From positions 1 through 38,723 of the forward strand of contig JABFQV010000014.1 in the NCBI GenBank assembly GCA_013141495.1: 38,723 nucleotides of DNA, written 5' to 3'. A program made the translations under genes and the position numbers. Shown here in pieces: positions 30,831-38,723 of this stretch. Position 1 is the stretch's first letter. Each line of letters starts with the position of its first letter. The DNA comes from Methylotenera sp. (lineage in GTDB: Bacteria; Pseudomonadota; Gammaproteobacteria; Burkholderiales; Methylophilaceae). A model generated the notes under the pieces. That model was not told the origin of the DNA and made no database searches. It saw nothing but the letters and a program-made list of their open reading frames with translations.

Positions 30831-31496
30831 ATGAACGCTAAAAAACGCTTTGAAATTTTTAAGCGCTTAAGCATCGCTATCCCCGACCCTGCAACTGAAC
30901 TCAAACATAACAGCACGTTTGAGTTATTGATTGCCGTAATATTATCGGCGCAGGCGACGGATAAAAGCGTTAACCTAGCCACAGATAAGTTATTCGCCAC
31001 GGCCAATACACCTGAAGCAATCTTGGCGCTGGGTATAGATGGTTTAGAGCGCTACATTAAAACCATAGGCTTATATCACTCAAAAGCTAAGAACGTGCTC
31101 GCGACCTGCCAAATGCTCATCACACAGCACCAATCACAAGTACCCAATACTCGGTTAGCCTTAGAAGCGTTGCCGGGCGTAGGCCGTAAGACGGCTAATG
31201 TCATTTTAAATACAGCGTTTGGCGAACCGACGATTGCTGTGGATACCCATTTATTTCGATTAGGCAACCGTATTAAGTTAGCGCCCGGTAAAACAGTGTT
31301 GGAAGTTGAGAAGCAATATCTAAAAACCATTCCGCCAGCGTTTATGCAAGATGCCCATCACCTGCTCATTTTGCATGGGCGTTATACCTGCACCGCTATT
31401 AAGCCCAAATGTGCCCAATGTTGCATTGAAGACCTATGCGAATATCAGGCAAAAGAATACGCACCACCAAAACCTAAGCAAAAAAATCAGTCATGA
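30831..31496 (+). CDS. nth: Endonuclease III (DNA glycosylase/AP lyase)
   Basis: Base-excision repair enzyme that removes oxidised pyrimidines. 221 residues, the standard size. Helix-hairpin-helix LPGVGRKTANV carries catalytic K120, and D138 lies in IAVDTHLFRLGNR. The 4Fe-4S cluster Cys are 187, 194, 197 and 203 (C-x6-C-x2-C-x5-C), the same numbering as in E. coli Nth. The stop overlaps the start of the FIST gene by four bases. Confidence 0.97.
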   Translation: MNAKKRFEIFKRLSIAIPDPATELKHNSTFELLIAVILSAQATDKSVNLATDKLFATANTPEAILALGIDGLERYIKTIGLYHSKAKNVLATCQMLITQHQSQVPNTRLALEALPGVGRKTANVILNTAFGEPTIAVDTHLFRLGNRIKLAPGKTVLEVEKQYLKTIPPAFMQDAHHLLILHGRYTCTAIKPKCAQCCIEDLCEYQAKEYAPPKPKQKNQS

Positions 31497-32584
31497 AAGT
31501 TGCAACCAGCATTGTATTAGGACGTGAAGCCAAACCTGAACTTGCAGCTGAGGCTGTCACCAACGCTATGCGCAAGGCTGGCATTACTGTTGCAAACAGC
31601 GTGCTACTGTTACTCACCTCGGAATTTGCCAGCAACCCACAGGCCGCGATTAAAGCCGCAGCAAGCGCTGCCAGTTGCACTCAGGTGATGGGTTGTTCCG
31701 CGACTGGTATTTTCACCGAAGACGACTGGGTGCTAGATGCGCCAGCTGCGGCTGCCATGGTATTTGGCGATGATGTTACCTTGCAACTCGCAAGACAGAA
31801 CCACGCACGGCAACCATTACTTACGCTCTCCGCTCCCAATGCAATTAACAGCACATGGCTTAATAATGACATTGCGCGCTTTGGTGGTGTATCGGGTGAT
31901 GCGATAGGTCAAGGTCCATTTTCTGTATGGCAAAATGCCAAAGGTGAAGTTGCCGGTTATGTTGAGGCGTTTTTTTCTGGCGTCAATATCGTGACAGAGG
32001 CGTCGCATGGCTTACTGCAGCTCACGCAGCCTAAAAAAATTCAACAAGTCGATGAATTTGATATTCTGTTGTTAGATCGTCATACCAGCCCTTTTTCCAG
32101 CTTAAAGAAAGCTTGGAAAGCACATAGCAAAAGCAATGAACCTGTGCCTTTGCACTTGGTGATGGCTATATATGCGGAGAGTGCCAAGGCTATAAAACAA
32201 GGTGAATACAACCAAACCACAGTGATTAGCTATGATGAAACCAATGGCAATATCATGCTTGCCCAGCCACTTAAACCTGGGCAATATATCAGCTGGGGCC
32301 TGCGTGACACTACCGCCGCTATTGCAGACATGACACACATGACGCATCGCTTGACTGAAAAATTAGGGTGCCAGCCCGACTTTGCTTTATTGTTTTCTTG
32401 CTTAGGGCGCGGCCCCTATTTTTATGCGGGAACGGACCAAGACTTAAAAGTAATTACGCAACAATTTCCACGGATGCCGCTATTGGGTTTTTATGGCAAC
32501 GGCGAAATCGCCTCCATTAATGGGATCAATCAACTGCTTCCCTATTCAGCAGTGCTATCTTTATTTAGCGCAAAAACAGATTAA
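31493..32584 (+). CDS. FIST-domain sensory protein
   Basis: A 363-residue protein with a FIST N-terminal domain (about 15-200, LTSEFASNPQAAIKAAASAA and VMGCSATGIF) and a FIST C-terminal domain (about 205-340, LFSCLGRGPYFYAGTDQDL and LLGFYGNGEIASING). FIST proteins are thought to bind small ligands such as amino acids and to act in signal transduction. There is no transmembrane segment and no fused output domain, so this is a stand-alone, probably cytosolic member. It is translationally coupled to nth by a 4-nt overlap, an arrangement also seen in related betaproteobacteria. Confidence 0.85.
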   Translation: MKVATSIVLGREAKPELAAEAVTNAMRKAGITVANSVLLLLTSEFASNPQAAIKAAASAASCTQVMGCSATGIFTEDDWVLDAPAAAAMVFGDDVTLQLARQNHARQPLLTLSAPNAINSTWLNNDIARFGGVSGDAIGQGPFSVWQNAKGEVAGYVEAFFSGVNIVTEASHGLLQLTQPKKIQQVDEFDILLLDRHTSPFSSLKKAWKAHSKSNEPVPLHLVMAIYAESAKAIKQGEYNQTTVISYDETNGNIMLAQPLKPGQYISWGLRDTTAAIADMTHMTHRLTEKLGCQPDFALLFSCLGRGPYFYAGTDQDLKVITQQFPRMPLLGFYGNGEIASINGINQLLPYSAVLSLFSAKTD

Positions 32585-32598
32585 ATATAGAAACCATC

Positions 32599-33039
32599 AT
32601 GAGTTTATACAACCCAAGCCGCGACCAAGCCCGTCAGTTTTTATTTGATGCATGGGCTAAATTTAAACAAAATGCGCCGTTATCGGATTTAGAAAAAATA
32701 GCAGTCGAAGTGATGCAGATGCATCCTGAATATCACTCTATATTGGAGGCGCCAAAGCGCTACATGCAGCAGCAATACTTTCCAGAAATGGGCGAAACTA
32801 ACCCGTTTTTACATTTGAGCCTACATTTATCCGTCATTGAACAGATCAGCATCAACCAACCGATTGGCATCACACAAGTTTATGCTACATTACAGAAAAA
32901 ACACGATGACAAACATATGGCACAGCATGATTTATTAGAATGCCTTGCCGAAACCATTTGGCAGGCACAGCGTAACAATACACCTTTAGATTCAGTGCAT
33001 TACCTTAGCTTGCTAAATCAGAGAGCCGGGCAAGCTTAA
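32599..33039 (+). CDS. DUF1841 family protein
   Basis: A 146-residue soluble protein of the DUF1841 family, common in betaproteobacteria and of unknown function. Recognised by SRDQARQFLFDAWAKF near the N-terminus, ALEKIAVEVMQMHPEYH-like text (here LEKIAVEVMQMHPEYHSIL), and NPFLHLSLHLSVIEQISINQP in the middle. It is mostly helical with several conserved His in the middle region (HLSLHLS), which might bind metal, but this is speculation. It starts 14 nt after the FIST gene, and its stop overlaps the sigma factor start by one base. Confidence 0.85.
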   Translation: MSLYNPSRDQARQFLFDAWAKFKQNAPLSDLEKIAVEVMQMHPEYHSILEAPKRYMQQQYFPEMGETNPFLHLSLHLSVIEQISINQPIGITQVYATLQKKHDDKHMAQHDLLECLAETIWQAQRNNTPLDSVHYLSLLNQRAGQA

Positions 33040-33596
33040 TGGTGGATAATGTAAATAACTGGCTGAACGATCATGGCGATTATTTATATCGCTTTGCCTT
33101 AGCCAGATTGCGCGACCCGCACTTAGCTGAAGATGCTGTACAAGAAACCATGTTAGCCGCCATTAAAAGTAATAGTTTTAAAGGTGATTCATCTGCACGT
33201 ACCTGGCTCACCGGCATACTCAAACATAAAATCATAGACCTGCAACGTAAACAGTTTCGTGAGCAGCCAATCTCGGATTTAATTGACTTGGATGCAAGTG
33301 ACACCAGCATGGATGATTTTTTTGACCAATCGGGTCACTGGCTTGATAAACCACAAACATTCAACATGCCGGATAACACATTGGAACAAAAACAATTTTT
33401 GGGTGTTCTAGACACCTGCATGAATAAATTACCTAAAAAATTAAAAGCTATTTTCATGTTGCGTGATGTGCATGAAACCGACAATGAAATCATTTGTAAG
33501 GAGCTCGATATCACTGCGACCAATGCTTGGGTGATGTTGTATCGCGCTCGGATGGGGTTAAGAAAGTGCTTGGAATTGAATTGGACTGGCGCATGA
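33039..33596 (+). CDS. ECF-type RNA polymerase sigma factor
   Basis: A 185-residue group-4 sigma factor. Sigma-2 region about 10-75 (LYRFALARLRDPHLAEDAVQ, and FKGDSSARTWLTGILKHKII). A linker of about 45 residues contains Asp/Ser-rich DASDTSMDDFF. Sigma-4 region about 125-180 (MNKLPKKLKAIFMLRDVHE, ICKELDITATNAWVMLYRAR). The next gene encodes a zinc-finger anti-sigma factor, the normal ECF partner. The hvfABC-like cassette follows, making it the likely regulatory target, in line with sigma/anti-sigma pairs beside related metallophore operons. Start overlaps the DUF1841 stop. Confidence 0.93.
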   Translation: MVDNVNNWLNDHGDYLYRFALARLRDPHLAEDAVQETMLAAIKSNSFKGDSSARTWLTGILKHKIIDLQRKQFREQPISDLIDLDASDTSMDDFFDQSGHWLDKPQTFNMPDNTLEQKQFLGVLDTCMNKLPKKLKAIFMLRDVHETDNEIICKELDITATNAWVMLYRARMGLRKCLELNWTGA

Positions 33597-33614: not shown

Positions 33615-33863
33615 ATGCTGACATGTAAACAAGCCAGCCAACTCGTTTCGCAATCCTTAGATCGTCCATTATCTTGGCGTGAACTTGTGCAATTAAGGTT
33701 TCATCTTTTAATTTGTAATGCTTGCCGACACTTTAAGCAACAGTTAAATCAGTTGCTTATTGCTATAGAGCAACTTAAAAATGAAACTGTGCTTGACCAA
33801 ACGATACAGCTCTCGACAGATGCAAAAACAAAAATTTTGCAGGTGATTGAATCAAACCCATAG
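33615..33863 (+). CDS. Zinc-finger (zf-HC2) anti-sigma factor
   Basis: An 82-residue cytosolic protein with the HC2 zinc-binding signature: Cys4 in MLTCKQASQ, then FHLLICNACRHF (H-x3-C-x2-C), about 30-41. The zf-HC2 fold is typical of ZAS-type anti-sigma factors that release their sigma on redox or metal stress. There is no transmembrane helix, so it is a soluble sensor. It lies 18 nt after the sigma factor and 35 nt before hvfA. A thiol/zinc-based sensor matches the presumed copper-stress role of the downstream genes, but this is inference. Confidence 0.88.
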   Translation: MLTCKQASQLVSQSLDRPLSWRELVQLRFHLLICNACRHFKQQLNQLLIAIEQLKNETVLDQTIQLSTDAKTKILQVIESNP

Positions 33864-33898: not shown

Positions 33899-34261
33899 AT
33901 GAACAACACACAAAAAACCATCGCACTTGCTATCGGCGGTGCATTTGCATTGTCTTTAGCGGCAACCACAGCTAGTGCCGCAGAAAACCCGTTTGCAGTT
34001 AAATCACTCTCTTCAGGCTATCAAGTAGCGGATGCAAAGGATACTAAAGCTACTGATGGCAAATGCGGTGCGGGTAAATGTGGTGCCAGCATGAAAAAAG
34101 CAGATAAAGCTAAAGAAGGCGCATGCTCAGCTAAAAAAGCTAAAGAAGGTGCTTGCAACGCCGAGAAAAAAACAGATGCTAGCGCTACAGATAAGGCGAA
34201 GGAAGGCGCATGCTCCGCTGAAAAGATGAAAGAAGGTTCATGCAGCGCTGAGAAAAAATAA
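33899..34261 (+). CDS. hvfA: HvfA-like secreted Cys-repeat RiPP metallophore precursor
   Basis: A 120-residue exported precursor peptide. The Sec signal (about 1-27) ends in TTASA. The N-terminal mature segment contains NPFAVKSLSSGYQVADA, characteristic of HvfA-type precursors. Six cysteines follow: C56 and C61 in DGKCGAGKCG, then C76, C86, C105 and C115 in KEGACSA, KEGACNA, KEGACSA and KEGSCSA repeats. In the studied HvfA family, EGKCG cysteines are converted to oxazolone/thioamide groups that bind Cu(I). Here only the first region resembles that motif; the other four are variants. Start is ATG 33899 with GAAAGG upstream; a TTG 15 nt earlier was rejected. Followed by hvfB and hvfC. Confidence 0.88.
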   Translation: MNNTQKTIALAIGGAFALSLAATTASAAENPFAVKSLSSGYQVADAKDTKATDGKCGAGKCGASMKKADKAKEGACSAKKAKEGACNAEKKTDASATDKAKEGACSAEKMKEGSCSAEKK

Positions 34262-34273
34262 GCTTAGTTAGCG

Positions 34274-35134
34274 ATGGCATCCATCAGCCAAATACAAGGT
34301 GTTGGTCTGGGATTAAAGCGCGAGCTCATACCCCAGATTCAATCGCTTTATGGGCAACCTGAAATTGCCAATATCAATTTTGTTGAAATTGCACCTGAGA
34401 ACTGGATCGGGGTTGGCGGTAAATCAGCAAAGCAACTAGATTGGTTTGTTGAACGTTATCCCATCATTTGCCATGGCTTATGTTTATCACTGGGCGGCCT
34501 CGCGCCACTCAATACTGACTTTTTGCAACAAGTTAAAAGCTTTCTGCATCAGTATCAGATCCCCGTTTATACCGAGCATTTAAGTTATTGCACTGACGGC
34601 TACAAAGGCGGGCAAGGCTATTTGTATGACCTATTACCCATTCCATTTACTGAAGAAGCGGTACACTACGTCGCTAAACGCATCCGTCAAACGCAAGATA
34701 TTTTAGGTCAGCGCATAGGCGTTGAAAACGCCTCATTTTATGCCGCAGCACCGGTGTCTGAAATGAGCGAACTTGCATTTATCAACGCCGTATTAGATGA
34801 AGCTGATTGCTTACTGCACCTAGACATCAATAACATTTACGTCAATAGTGTTAATTTTAACTTTGACCCGCATGCGTTTTTACGTAGCATCCCGAGTGAG
34901 CGAATTATCTACAGCCACGTTGCTGGGCATTACCAGCAAACGCCAAAATTACTGGTAGATACACACGGTGAAGACATCATTGACCCGGTATGGGCTTTGC
35001 TTGAGGATGCCTATCAACTATTTGGCGCATTCCCTACCCTGCTAGAGCGGGACACTAATATCCCGCCTTTGAATATTCTAATGAATGAAGTCAATAAAAT
35101 TGCACAGTTACAGCGCAATCAACAAACGTCATGA
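34274..35134 (+). CDS. hvfB: DUF692/MNIO-family iron-dependent peptide-modifying enzyme (HvfB/BufB-type)
   Basis: A 286-residue multinuclear non-heme iron-dependent oxidative (MNIO, DUF692, MbnB-like) enzyme that modifies cysteines of the adjacent precursor with its DUF2063 partner. TIM-barrel signatures with candidate metal ligands: FVEIAPENWIG (E42), IICHGLCLSLGG (H68), VYTEHLSYC (E101/H102), GVENASFYA (E151), LHLDINNIYVNSVNF (D184), IIYSHVAGHY (H215, H219), VDTHGEDIIDP (D229, H231) and LLERDTNIPPL. It starts 12 nt after hvfA; its stop overlaps hvfC by four bases, indicating a single transcript with coupled translation. Confidence 0.92.
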   Translation: MASISQIQGVGLGLKRELIPQIQSLYGQPEIANINFVEIAPENWIGVGGKSAKQLDWFVERYPIICHGLCLSLGGLAPLNTDFLQQVKSFLHQYQIPVYTEHLSYCTDGYKGGQGYLYDLLPIPFTEEAVHYVAKRIRQTQDILGQRIGVENASFYAAAPVSEMSELAFINAVLDEADCLLHLDINNIYVNSVNFNFDPHAFLRSIPSERIIYSHVAGHYQQTPKLLVDTHGEDIIDPVWALLEDAYQLFGAFPTLLERDTNIPPLNILMNEVNKIAQLQRNQQTS

Positions 35135-36386: not shown

Positions 36387-36845
36387 TTAATGGTGGTGCA
36401 TGCCTTTATCAACATCTTTAGCAGTTGATTTTTTTGCATCAACACTGAATGAGATTTTGTATTGATTTCCAATCTTATCTTGAATGACCAACACCATAGG
36501 CACTACTTCGCCAGCTTTAATCTGATGCTTAATATCTTGCAACATTAAATGGTAGCCTCCTGGCGCTAGCATCTCGGATTTTCCAGCTTTTAGGGCAAGT
36601 TCTTCTAATTGCCGCATTTTCATGACATTTCCAGACATGTTCATCTCGTGTATTTCTACACTACGTGCAATGCTGGAAGATGCCCCAATCACTTTTACAT
36701 CCTCACTTGTTGTCAAGGTCATATAAGCTGCAGCAACTGACTGCCCTGGAGCTGTAGGTTTAACCCAAGCATTGGTGACTTTCAATGCTGCTTGTGCAGA
36801 ACAGGACATACATAACAAAGTAATAGCCGCGTAGATTGTTTTCAT
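36387..36845 (-). CDS. PCu(A)C-family periplasmic copper chaperone
   Basis: A 152-residue secreted protein with a cleavable signal (MKTIYAAITLLCMSCSAQAA) and one PCu(A)C (DUF461) domain, which delivers Cu(I) to cytochrome c oxidase CuA in characterised relatives. Seen: VTNAWVKPTAPGQSVAAAYM, and the Cu-binding H-x-M...M...HxM set in VEIHEMNMSGNVMKMRQ and GGYHLMLQDIK. The C-terminus ends in a GMHHH tail, an added metal site. Downstream of the PepSY-TM gene on the same strand with an 86-nt gap, so they likely form one copper/iron-handling unit opposing the hvf cassette. Confidence 0.92.
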   Translation of the reverse strand: MKTIYAAITLLCMSCSAQAALKVTNAWVKPTAPGQSVAAAYMTLTTSEDVKVIGASSSIARSVEIHEMNMSGNVMKMRQLEELALKAGKSEMLAPGGYHLMLQDIKHQIKAGEVVPMVLVIQDKIGNQYKISFSVDAKKSTAKDVDKGMHHH

Positions 36846-36931: not shown

Positions 36932-38476
36932 CTAATCATGCTTAACACTTAACTTCCTTGTAAAAATAATCATTCCTAATAGCGCAACCACAATATTGCC
37001 TAACGCAAATAGCGAAACCAGAATATCGCGTAGATCCTTGTTTAAGCTTTCAAAACTCCACTTATGCAAATAAGCGAATACAAATCCCTCCAAACCATCA
37101 ATATCGCGCACTTTGGCGGCTAATGCGCCTGTGGCTGGTTCTACGTAATAGCGCGTGTGATCTGCATCATTCATTTGCACTTTAACAACGGGTAATCGCT
37201 TAAAAATAAATCCATATTCATTGGCGAATTTCTTAATCGTTTCTGCACTGACAATTTCGCTAATTGGACGCTGTAAAATCGTTGCAACTTGCTGTTTGGC
37301 TAATATCTCAACGCTATTTTGCTGTGGTGGATTTACGTTTTTTAGATTTAAATCAGCGCGTAAAACATAAGGCATAACAGGTTTATCTTTGGCGATATTA
37401 TGCTCATGATGATCGTGATGTTCTGCATGTTCGACTTCCTTAGCTAATGCAGCCACTTGCGCCACAGGCATTTGGTTTGCACCCGAATTTGAAGCAGGCA
37501 ACACGTACCAATAAGGTGTTTTTGAATACGCGATTAAATCTAATTTAGCCAAAGGTTTGGCCGTAAACTCTTCCCAAATTTGAGGGTTAAGTTGCTTGGT
37601 CAATACAGTTTCTGGCTTTATTGCAAGGGTATTAGCTTGTTGCTGATAACTCATAATCAAATGAAATAATCCACTAGAAGCAAAAATCAACGCGGCAATG
37701 GAAACGATTAAACCGATACGACGATGCCAACGGCGCATGGGTTGATTGACTAAACGGCGTTTGCTTTTTGCCAGTTTGAAGTATAAATACAAGCCAGAAA
37801 TGGCAGAAGTAAGCACCGCACATAGCACCAAAGCGGCGATACCTAACTGTAACTTAGGCGTAGATTCCAGAAACGACCAATTGTGGCCAAATTGGAATAA
37901 TCTGGTCAGCCAATAACGCGTATCGTTGACCAATGATGATAGGCGCGATTGTTCAGTATCGATAAATGCGCGCAAATGTTGGCTATCGTTAAACTCCACA
38001 CGCCATACTGGCAACAAACGATTCACAGCATGATAATCAGAGCTGAACTGTGTGATCAGCTCTGTTTTGCTGATCTCACTTAGATCTTTGCCTGTGAAAT
38101 GCGCTGCTAAACTTTGGGCGTAATTAATATCACCGTCGGCTAACTCTTCACCCGTTTTAATATCGAAATAACGCGCAGGCTTATTCGGTTCAGTACCCAC
38201 TCTGAAATAGGTTTTACTAGAAAATTGAGCAAGGCTAATGTGGTTAAATTGGATGATCCCATGCTGATCTAATACACTTTTAACAGTTTGCGATTGGCTT
38301 AAATCATATTGGGCAGATGGTGCTGCAAATGCGGCTGGCTTAGGTTGCAGGCGCGACATGATGGGATGTGAAATACCCGAAATACCCCACATTAAAATAC
38401 CCACACAGGTGACTAGGCCAAGCCAGCGATGCAAAAACATCCAATTCAATCTCATCTTAGCCATTACGCTATTCAT
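36932..38476 (-). CDS. PepSY-associated transmembrane protein
   Basis: A membrane protein of about 514 residues in the PepSY-TM (PiuB/DUF2271-neighbour-like) family, often beside TonB-dependent siderophore or metal receptors. Four transmembrane segments: WMFLHRWLGLVTCVGILMWG at the N-terminus, two in the middle (LGIAALVLCAVLTSAISGLY, and RRIGLIVSIAALIFASSGLF, about 215-290), one at the C-terminus. PepSY domains lie between. A His-rich stretch HAEHHDHHEHN near 355-365 suggests metal binding in the periplasm. The start is uncertain: ATG 38476, overlapping the upstream stop, was chosen over 38494 and 38464. Function beyond redox or metal uptake is unknown. Confidence 0.82.
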   Translation of the reverse strand: MNSVMAKMRLNWMFLHRWLGLVTCVGILMWGISGISHPIMSRLQPKPAAFAAPSAQYDLSQSQTVKSVLDQHGIIQFNHISLAQFSSKTYFRVGTEPNKPARYFDIKTGEELADGDINYAQSLAAHFTGKDLSEISKTELITQFSSDYHAVNRLLPVWRVEFNDSQHLRAFIDTEQSRLSSLVNDTRYWLTRLFQFGHNWSFLESTPKLQLGIAALVLCAVLTSAISGLYLYFKLAKSKRRLVNQPMRRWHRRIGLIVSIAALIFASSGLFHLIMSYQQQANTLAIKPETVLTKQLNPQIWEEFTAKPLAKLDLIAYSKTPYWYVLPASNSGANQMPVAQVAALAKEVEHAEHHDHHEHNIAKDKPVMPYVLRADLNLKNVNPPQQNSVEILAKQQVATILQRPISEIVSAETIKKFANEYGFIFKRLPVVKVQMNDADHTRYYVEPATGALAAKVRDIDGLEGFVFAYLHKWSFESLNKDLRDILVSLFALGNIVVALLGMIIFTRKLSVKHD

Positions 38477-38723
38477 GACTCTTCGCATGATCATGTGGCG
38501 TTTTCAGCAAATCGACCATGCCTTTAAAGCTATTGATGGTTGTCTGTTGGTCTAAACTTAATTGTGCTTCGGCTTGCGTCAATGCTGCGATTAATTGTTC
38601 AGCATCTGCATCAGGCACGCCCATATCAGTTAAGCGTCTATATTGTTTTAAATGATCATCTCCACACATCAATGCTTGCCAATGCCCTGCATTCAATCGA
38701 AGTAAAGCTCTTCCACCGCGTGG
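38469..38723 (-). CDS. Partial protein, C-terminal part, cut by the window edge
   Basis: A minus-strand frame is open to the window end, so the gene begins outside. The visible 84 residues are soluble and mainly helical (ALLRLNAGHWQALMCGDDHL, then AEQLIAALTQAEAQLSLDQQ), ending in His-rich TPHDHAKSHE. No family is recognised. Its TAG stop overlaps the presumed PepSY-TM start (ATGAATAG), indicating that it is co-transcribed with PepSY-TM and the PCu(A)C gene. Confidence 0.6.
   Translation of the reverse strand, partial: PRGGRALLRLNAGHWQALMCGDDHLKQYRRLTDMGVPDADAEQLIAALTQAEAQLSLDQQTTINSFKGMVDLLKTPHDHAKSHE

Follow-up and report, generated by a model that had tools for sequence, protein, structure and literature searches.

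The 38,723-nucleotide contig JABFQV010000014.1 of Methylotenera sp. (assembly GCA_013141495.1), referred to here as the window, carries a cysteine-rich, putatively secreted precursor related to HvfA, followed by genes for an HvfB-family MNIO maturase and its HvfC-family partner. Only two of the six precursor cysteines stand in the familiar Cys-Gly setting, and the remaining four lie in repeated units that place Ser or Asn after the cysteine. The product is best explained as a captophorin-type copper-sequestering peptide in which all six cysteines would be substrates through a broader HvfB motif, a reading that is given a probability of about 0.66.

On predicted gene content the locus is a captophorin-type cluster, with the Cys-rich precursor directly upstream of the MNIO gene (hvfA stops at 34261 and hvfB starts at 34274) and a DUF2063/PME1 partner. 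The first-pass annotation had proposed an HvfA-type precursor served by a DUF692 plus DUF2063 pair, and this is confirmed by the PF05114 match of the maturase (2.2e-99) and by the DUF2063 and NGO1945_C matches of its neighbor. A search of the genome returned one MNIO, one match to the window precursor and no DUF2282 bufferin precursor at E 0.01, so that the HvfB and the precursor of the window are most likely partners.

A precursor with two kinds of cysteine site

The predicted signal of the precursor, recognized by eye, consists of MNNTQKT, a hydrophobic stretch and the putative cleavage site between ASA and AEN. Beyond it the chain runs from NPF...GYQVA through DGKCGAGKCG to four further units. 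The cysteines occupy positions 56, 61, 76, 86, 105 and 115 (spacings 5, 15, 10, 19 and 10). Translation thus bears out the earlier description of C56 and C61 in DGKCGAGKCG and of the others in KEGACSA, KEGACNA, KEGACSA and KEGSCSA, as well as the 10-19 residue intervals between unit cysteines (15, 10, 19 and 10 after the pair). Gly follows two of the six cysteines, and Ser or Asn the other four. The unit pattern is more than chance: shuffling the mature peptide 20,000 times never produced four copies of KEG[AS]C[SN]A and produced a single unit once. Part of this regularity is due to an internal duplication of units 1-2 as units 3-4; the 23 codons compared between the copies include 13 without any difference, 6 with a silent one and 4 with a replacement, and both cysteines are kept.

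The precursor passes one of two HvfA family models. The KCGExKCG_twice domain model NF050137 scores 24.9 bits against a cut-off of 19.5, and is also passed by 8 of 10 homologues scanned. The HvfA equivalog model NF050188 reaches 30 bits against a cut-off of 95, and all ten of those homologues likewise fall below it. An HvfA/EGKCG repeat precursor would have its cysteines mostly in EGKCG, that is before Gly, which holds here for two of six. A Pfam scan of the window precursor gave no match, DUF2282 included; Decapeptide (PF25296) hits on three homologues lay below the family cut-off and were not used.

Conservation of the units across Methylophilaceae

An MNIO relative at E 1e-20 occurs in 113 of 187 Methylophilaceae genomes. 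The loci compared comprise the best matches together with 60 (class) and 20 (one order) lower-scoring places and therefore do not sample evenly, and some named loci were assigned to the family by record title and identity. Of 172 loci from the family and order (L001 and L002 being the window itself), 170 yielded a precursor next to HvfB. The EGAC-like precursors beside DUF692 genes that the first-pass annotation suggested seeking in other genomes were indeed found in Methylophilaceae loci. A total of 441 precursor homologues were found; among the best 120 of the 441, taken with the query, Ser follows 387 of 731 cysteines, and the three commonest six-residue contexts are EGKCSA, EGSCSA and EGACSA.

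With the window counted once, a pair of the GxC..GKC type was matched in 96 of 102 Methylophilaceae precursors, and four cysteines follow it in 55 of the 102. In variant units after the pair, defined as a K-preceded (E/D)(G/A)xx followed by S, H, N or A, the cysteine is kept at 194 of 196 sites. The figure for units with Gly following is 61 of 62. An earlier tally taken over whole cores, with canonical sites counted in, gave 334 of 337. The unit counts require K-E/D-G/A ahead of the site, which leaves out units degenerate at those positions, such as those of L029 and L038. The proposal that EGAC-type repeats define a subgroup therefore stands as a feature conserved in Methylophilaceae, even as unit number and spacing vary among its precursors.

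The residue after the cysteine is Gly at 272 sites, Ser at 222 and another residue at 72 in 101 Methylophilaceae precursors, versus 980, 52 and 74 in 179 precursors from outside the family. At the Cys-Ser sites, position -3 is Glu or Asp in 211 of 222 and position -2 is Gly in 213 of 222, as expected for enzyme recognition; position -1 is mostly Ser (89), Lys (74), Ala (29) or Asn (22). As judged from these alignments, the Methylophilaceae motif is (E/D)-G-x-C-(G/S/H/N), with a variable residue before the cysteine. Calling EG(A/S)C(S/N) non-canonical was half right. Ser or Asn after the cysteine is unusual; Ala or Ser before it is not, as non-family precursors also vary there and FonBC, the characterized fontiphorin enzyme pair, tolerates Ala (PMC13097082).

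Among the papers listed by literature searches, none dealt with EGKCSA-, EGACSA- or EGSCSA-like repeats or with a Methylotenera cluster, although EGxCS motifs may stand in the data sets of PMC13097082. A few precursors depart from the common plan. L029 and L038 retain only a KCATGQCG pair, with Cys-less stretches elsewhere (KEDSTGTE and KEDSSSAE in L029, KEDADEIK and KEDASHTE in L038) and HvfB retained alongside. The five of 102 precursors counted with no cysteine after the pair include L033 and L044, in which the matched pair is C-terminal and more Cys-Gly sites lie ahead of it. L099 has Cys-Cys units (DGSCCAGG), unlike the others, and its adjoining enzyme has Met at position 261.

Selection on the unit cysteines

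Codon differences were counted in 34 pairs of equal-length precursors (70-98% identity, ungapped alignment), which share ancestry, so that the counts are not independent. In 133 comparisons of the third and later Cys codons, 55 differences are silent and 6 replace the residue; for the first two Cys, 68 comparisons give 20 silent changes and no replacement. At the residue before the later cysteines there are 40 silent and 23 replacement differences in the same 133 comparisons. Among the six unit positions counted, the cysteine has the fewest replacements (6 of 133; others 9 to 23). Even so, the codon comparisons show the unit cysteines retained as the preceding neighbor drifts. Unconserved filler, the outcome that would have undone the idea of a variant substrate, is not what these counts or the 194 of 196 retained cysteines describe.

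Precursors without Cys-Gly beside HvfB and HvfC

No Cys-Gly at all occurs in the precursor identified next to HvfB and HvfC in three genomes, G129 (89% complete), G050 and G039, where both enzyme frames are complete and HvfB has its near-invariant residues. The G039 precursor has two cysteines, both Cys-Ser. Of six such loci listed initially, three were dropped when contig edges and second precursors were considered. The precursor of L102 runs into a contig edge and trimming had hidden a Cys-Gly, that of L135 (G304) adjoins a second precursor with Cys-Gly, and the genome of L103 (G151) has a second precursor with one Cys-Gly on another contig. NF050137 at E <=1 found no further precursor with Cys-Gly in G129, G050 or G039; in G050 it missed even the known precursor, so others could escape it. 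If HvfB were unable to take Cys-Ser, no substrate would have been found for it in these three genomes. They offer the most direct comparative evidence for Cys-Ser as a substrate, short of proof for the Ala/Ser-Cys-Ser or Cys-Asn sites of the window. Another arrangement is seen at L402 (G304:C10), where two close precursor genes precede one HvfB, one with six AKCA/AKCS sites and the other with KCG sites.

Comparison with characterized systems and a proposed pathway

The Haemophilus influenzae HvfA/HvfB/HvfC oxazolin system shares with the window a precursor with six cysteines, an HvfB-family MNIO and an HvfC-family partner, and its N-terminal secretion signal has a putative counterpart there (PMC13419390). 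Its HvfA has three AEGKCGEGKCG motifs, all Cys-Gly, and all six cysteines are modified (PMC13419390). The window differs in that four of six cysteines precede Ser or Asn, the units are mostly ten residues apart, and no HvfX/DoxX gene is present. All six cysteines of the Microbulbifer peptide MmrA are also modified (PMC12538549). The product of these enzymes was first called an oxazolone/thioamide, the assignment on which the first-pass annotation relied; it is now described as a 5-thiooxazole, the peptides forming the captophorin class (PMC13097082, PMC13419390). The Buf_EGKCG/oxazolin precursors are secreted EGKCG-repeat peptides, likewise encoded ahead of MNIO and DUF2063 genes; the available text of PMC12452194 does not mention an EGxC(S/H/N)A unit for them.

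The fontiphorin system FonABC, like other captophorins, resembles the window in its Lys-Cys type repeats, its MNIO and RRE-bearing PME1, and a copper-linked stress role, which is predicted for the window; it differs in that FonB has Phe250 and prefers Gly or Ala after the cysteine, whereas the window enzyme has Thr and faces Ser and Asn (PMC13097082). The known detailed probing of substrate choice around the target cysteine used one enzyme, FonB, and a panel of variants (PMC13097082). In vitro, FonBC tolerated Ala, Arg and Thr before the cysteine and fully modified DGKCG, and a motif of quite another kind, carrying Cys-Tyr, was accepted at one site of two (PMC13097082). A one-repeat peptide remained unmodified and a two-repeat peptide was modified (PMC13097082).

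By analogy, HvfC would bind the precursor in the cytoplasm while it still bears its Sec signal, and HvfB would there oxidize its cysteines to 5-thiooxazoles, with the loss of four hydrogens each. The modified peptide would then be exported by Sec and, once in the periplasm, may bind Cu(I) or some other soft metal, with a predicted sigma/anti-sigma stress switch controlling the cluster. The Methylophilaceae HvfB would take the relaxed motif (E/D)-G-x-C-(G/S/H/N), which would make substrates of all six cysteines in the window. The DGKCGAGKCG pair may be the entry site, as FonBC modifies a two-repeat but not a one-repeat peptide.

HvfB residue 261 and the residue after cysteine

An AlphaFold model has Phe250 of FonB, which adjoins the proposed catalytic base Asp249, contacting both residues that flank the cysteine, and the F250D variant accepts Phe before the cysteine where the wild type does not (PMC13097082). 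In the window HvfB, Asp260 is followed by Thr261, a position at which Phe is found in 62 of 67 enzymes of the order outside Methylophilaceae. Position 261 is equated with Phe250 because of the Asp-Phe neighborhood and the spacing to the second N-terminal Arg, which is 234-235 for the majority of F-type enzymes and 233 by the numbering of the paper.

An enlarged set of 397 loci yielded 322 distinct MNIO. Those lacking an identified precursor (30) or, beyond these, having fewer than two motif cysteines (12) were set aside; the 280 remaining rows became 279 when one with a gap at 261 was taken out. A residue other than Gly or Ala follows a motif cysteine in 79 of 121 rows without Phe versus 14 of 158 with it. 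Within Methylophilaceae (L102 left out), non-Gly after cysteine accompanies Asn, Thr, Ile, Leu or Met at 261 in 62 of 64 cases, and Ser, Ala, Val or Phe in 11 of 35. The six independent pairs in the family agree in direction 3.9 times on average and never oppose it; the eight in the whole set agree 3.0 times and oppose it 0.3 times. For "any non-Gly after Cys", a first column scan, from whose outside-family part L228, L232 and L244 were left out (mis-called or non-motif cysteines), ranked position 261 first of 143 in the family, second of 195 outside it and first of 202 overall; for "mostly non-Gly" it ranked seventh of 143 in the family. The enlarged scan, limited to motif cysteines, ranked it second of 145 in the family and second of 205 overall. 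Position 261 showed no association with the residue before the cysteine (rank 85 of 195), so that it does not account for the Ala or Ser of EG(A/S)C.

Cys-Ser units also occur in the order of G914 (L299-L302, L304-L307, L310, L311 and L313-L315), where lower-scoring HvfB enzymes with Phe or Ser after the catalytic Asp lie beside EG(G/A)CSG or EGGCN precursors; except for L310, these are second or third copies in their genomes. This lineage hints at more than one, apparently independent, origin of the Cys-Ser unit, which favors a genuine class of substrates over a peculiarity of one family. Separately, genus g15 (G066, G068, G080, G063, G076, G059, G073, G065, G060 and G061) has a distant MNIO, 37-39% identical to that of the window, in open frames of 547-583 aa that may represent a naturally fused enzyme and partner. 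It is an even bet that Methylophilaceae, and independently a second gammaproteobacterial lineage, place rings mainly at Cys-Ser, Cys-His or Cys-Asn in EGxC(S/H/N) units, with loss of Phe in HvfB as one route. A strict switch at residue 261 was rejected, since Phe also occurs in enzymes beside EG(G/A)CSG units and the median sign tests all stay above 0.05.

Weighing the explanations

Several observations count against a relaxed motif or its link to residue 261. Where the residue after the cysteine was changed in both repeats, FonBC accepted only Ala besides Gly among the changes described in PMC13097082, where Ser is not mentioned in the available text. FonB variants F250A and F250D still give product (PMC13097082), so Thr at 261 need not mean a new specificity. 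When relatedness is taken into account, the association with 261 falls short of significance (median p of 0.125 to 0.5 in sign tests). Phe is kept in L300-L302, L304, L307, L310, L311, L314 and L315, of the other gammaproteobacterial order, beside EG(G/A)CSG or EGGCN units; and the 14 of 158 Phe rows noted above have a residue other than Gly or Ala after a motif cysteine. Outside the family, position 261 fell from second of 195 to between 17th and 19th of 200 once more loci, the Phe-keeping lineage included, had joined. Finally, three of the 102 Methylophilaceae precursors (L029, L038 and L081) have the pair and no other cysteine, L029 and L038 with unit-like stretches that lack Cys, which makes the pair the most conserved part.

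The alternative that survives best, though unlikely, is that only C56 and C61 are modified and the four unit cysteines stay free thiol ligands, giving two thiooxazoles and four thiols. It is consistent with the pair being best conserved (found in 96 of 102 precursors and free of replacements in 68 comparisons, versus 6 in 133 for later cysteines), with the block of FonBC by most residues other than Gly or Ala after the cysteine (PMC13097082), and with the three precursors that have the pair alone. It leaves unexplained why E-G is kept before the unit cysteines, which metal binding by a free thiol does not need, and why HvfB and HvfC are kept in G129, G050 and G039, whose precursors lack any Cys-Gly. 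The first-pass annotation had offered two options, a broader motif or modification of the first two cysteines only; the former is now favored and the latter disfavored, with neither proven.

Less probable again is that the units are modified inefficiently or to another oxidized product, with the Ser or Asn side chain adjoining the new ring. FonBC did modify several variant motifs at one of two sites only (PMC13097082), and MNIO chemistry is diverse (PMC12452194, Table 1), but the characterized MNIO-PME1 pairs all make 5-thiooxazole (PMC13097082). That slippage or duplication multiplied the units as spacers, with functionless cysteines carried along, would fit the internal duplication and the variable unit number and spacing, yet it is very improbable given that the cysteine has the fewest replacements amid plentiful silent changes and does not drift as its preceding residue does. 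Modification of all six cysteines through a broader motif remains the preferred reading.

Gene neighborhood

The features of the cluster are collected in Table 1. An HvfC match follows HvfB in 98 of 98 Methylophilaceae loci with enough flank. Both a sigma and an anti-sigma gene lie upstream in 85 of 97 such loci, and in 28 of 169 non-family loci by the same test, which was queried with the proteins of the window and so favors Methylophilaceae. Promoter and terminator scans of the window gave nothing beyond shuffle level.

Table 1. Features of the hvf cluster in the window.
Feature	Position	Strand	Basis
ECF (extracytoplasmic function) sigma factor, TIGR02943 family	33039..33596	+	Pfam Sigma70_r2/r4_2; TIGR02943 200.7 bits, cut-off 162.2
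Zinc-finger (zf-HC2) anti-sigma factor	33615..33863	+	PF13490 1.7e-08; NF052368 74.7 bits, cut-off 50
HvfA-like precursor, 120 aa, 6 Cys	33899..34261	+	Open reading frame translation; NF050137 over cut-off
Predicted Sec-type signal peptide, 27 aa, likely cleavage ASA/AEN	33899..33979	+	By eye from translation
Canonical pair DGKCGAGKCG (C56, C61)	34055..34084	+	Translation
Internal direct repeat, copy 1 (units 1-2)	34101..34171	+	Nucleotide comparison
Unit 1, KEGACSA (C76)	34112..34132	+	Translation
Unit 2, KEGACNA (C86)	34142..34162	+	Translation
Internal direct repeat, copy 2 (units 3-4)	34188..34258	+	82% identical to copy 1 over 71 nt
Unit 3, KEGACSA (C105)	34199..34219	+	Translation
Unit 4, KEGSCSA (C115)	34229..34249	+	Translation
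HvfB-family MNIO maturase, 286 aa	34274..35134	+	PF05114 332 bits, 2.2e-99; NF003818 398.6 bits, cut-off 360; PDB 3bww relative, E 5.7e-75
HvfB Asp260 and Thr261 (sites of proposed catalytic base and FonB Phe250)	35051..35056	+	Alignment, FonB sequence itself not in it; role from PMC13097082
HvfC-family partner (DUF2063 + NGO1945_C), 266 aa	35131..35931	+	NF050145 252.5 bits, cut-off 142; PDB 3dee relative, E 2.4e-13

A comparable arrangement is the neisserial rpoE operon NMB2140-2145, in which a sigma factor and a zinc-binding anti-sigma factor are co-transcribed with three then-uncharacterized genes and a DoxX-like gene (PMC2893595). Its gonococcal counterpart is NGO1948-NGO1943 (PMC2893595), and as the C-terminal Pfam domain of HvfC is named NGO1945_C, the operon is probably the gonophorin cluster of PMC13097082. 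The window differs in having no DoxX gene adjoining hvfC: no DoxX-like gene (HvfX) was found in its cluster, and the two DoxX matches in the genome are on contigs 8 and 12, the window being contig 18.

Just past the hvf cluster, genes for a PCu(A)C-type copper chaperone (7.3e-33) and a PepSY-TM protein (36387-36845 and 36932-38494, both on the reverse strand) provide a further copper link. Ahead of the sigma gene, FIST-domain and DUF1841 protein genes occupy 31493-33039 (+); the DUF1841 stop and the sigma start overlap by one base, and co-transcription is possible.

Implications

If rings are built mainly at Cys-Ser, Cys-His and Cys-Asn sites, the peptides would carry them more widely spaced, with hydroxyl or imidazole side chains beside the thiooxazole and possibly an altered choice of metal. 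Predicted copper-binding peptides would extend beyond EGKCG, and the Methylophilaceae loci tie such peptides to a sigma/zinc anti-sigma switch (85 of 97 loci). The family constitutes a natural experiment of about 100 enzyme-precursor pairs, with the position after the cysteine shifting among Gly, Ser, His and Asn, and it offers ready substrates for testing what sets the motif of an MNIO.
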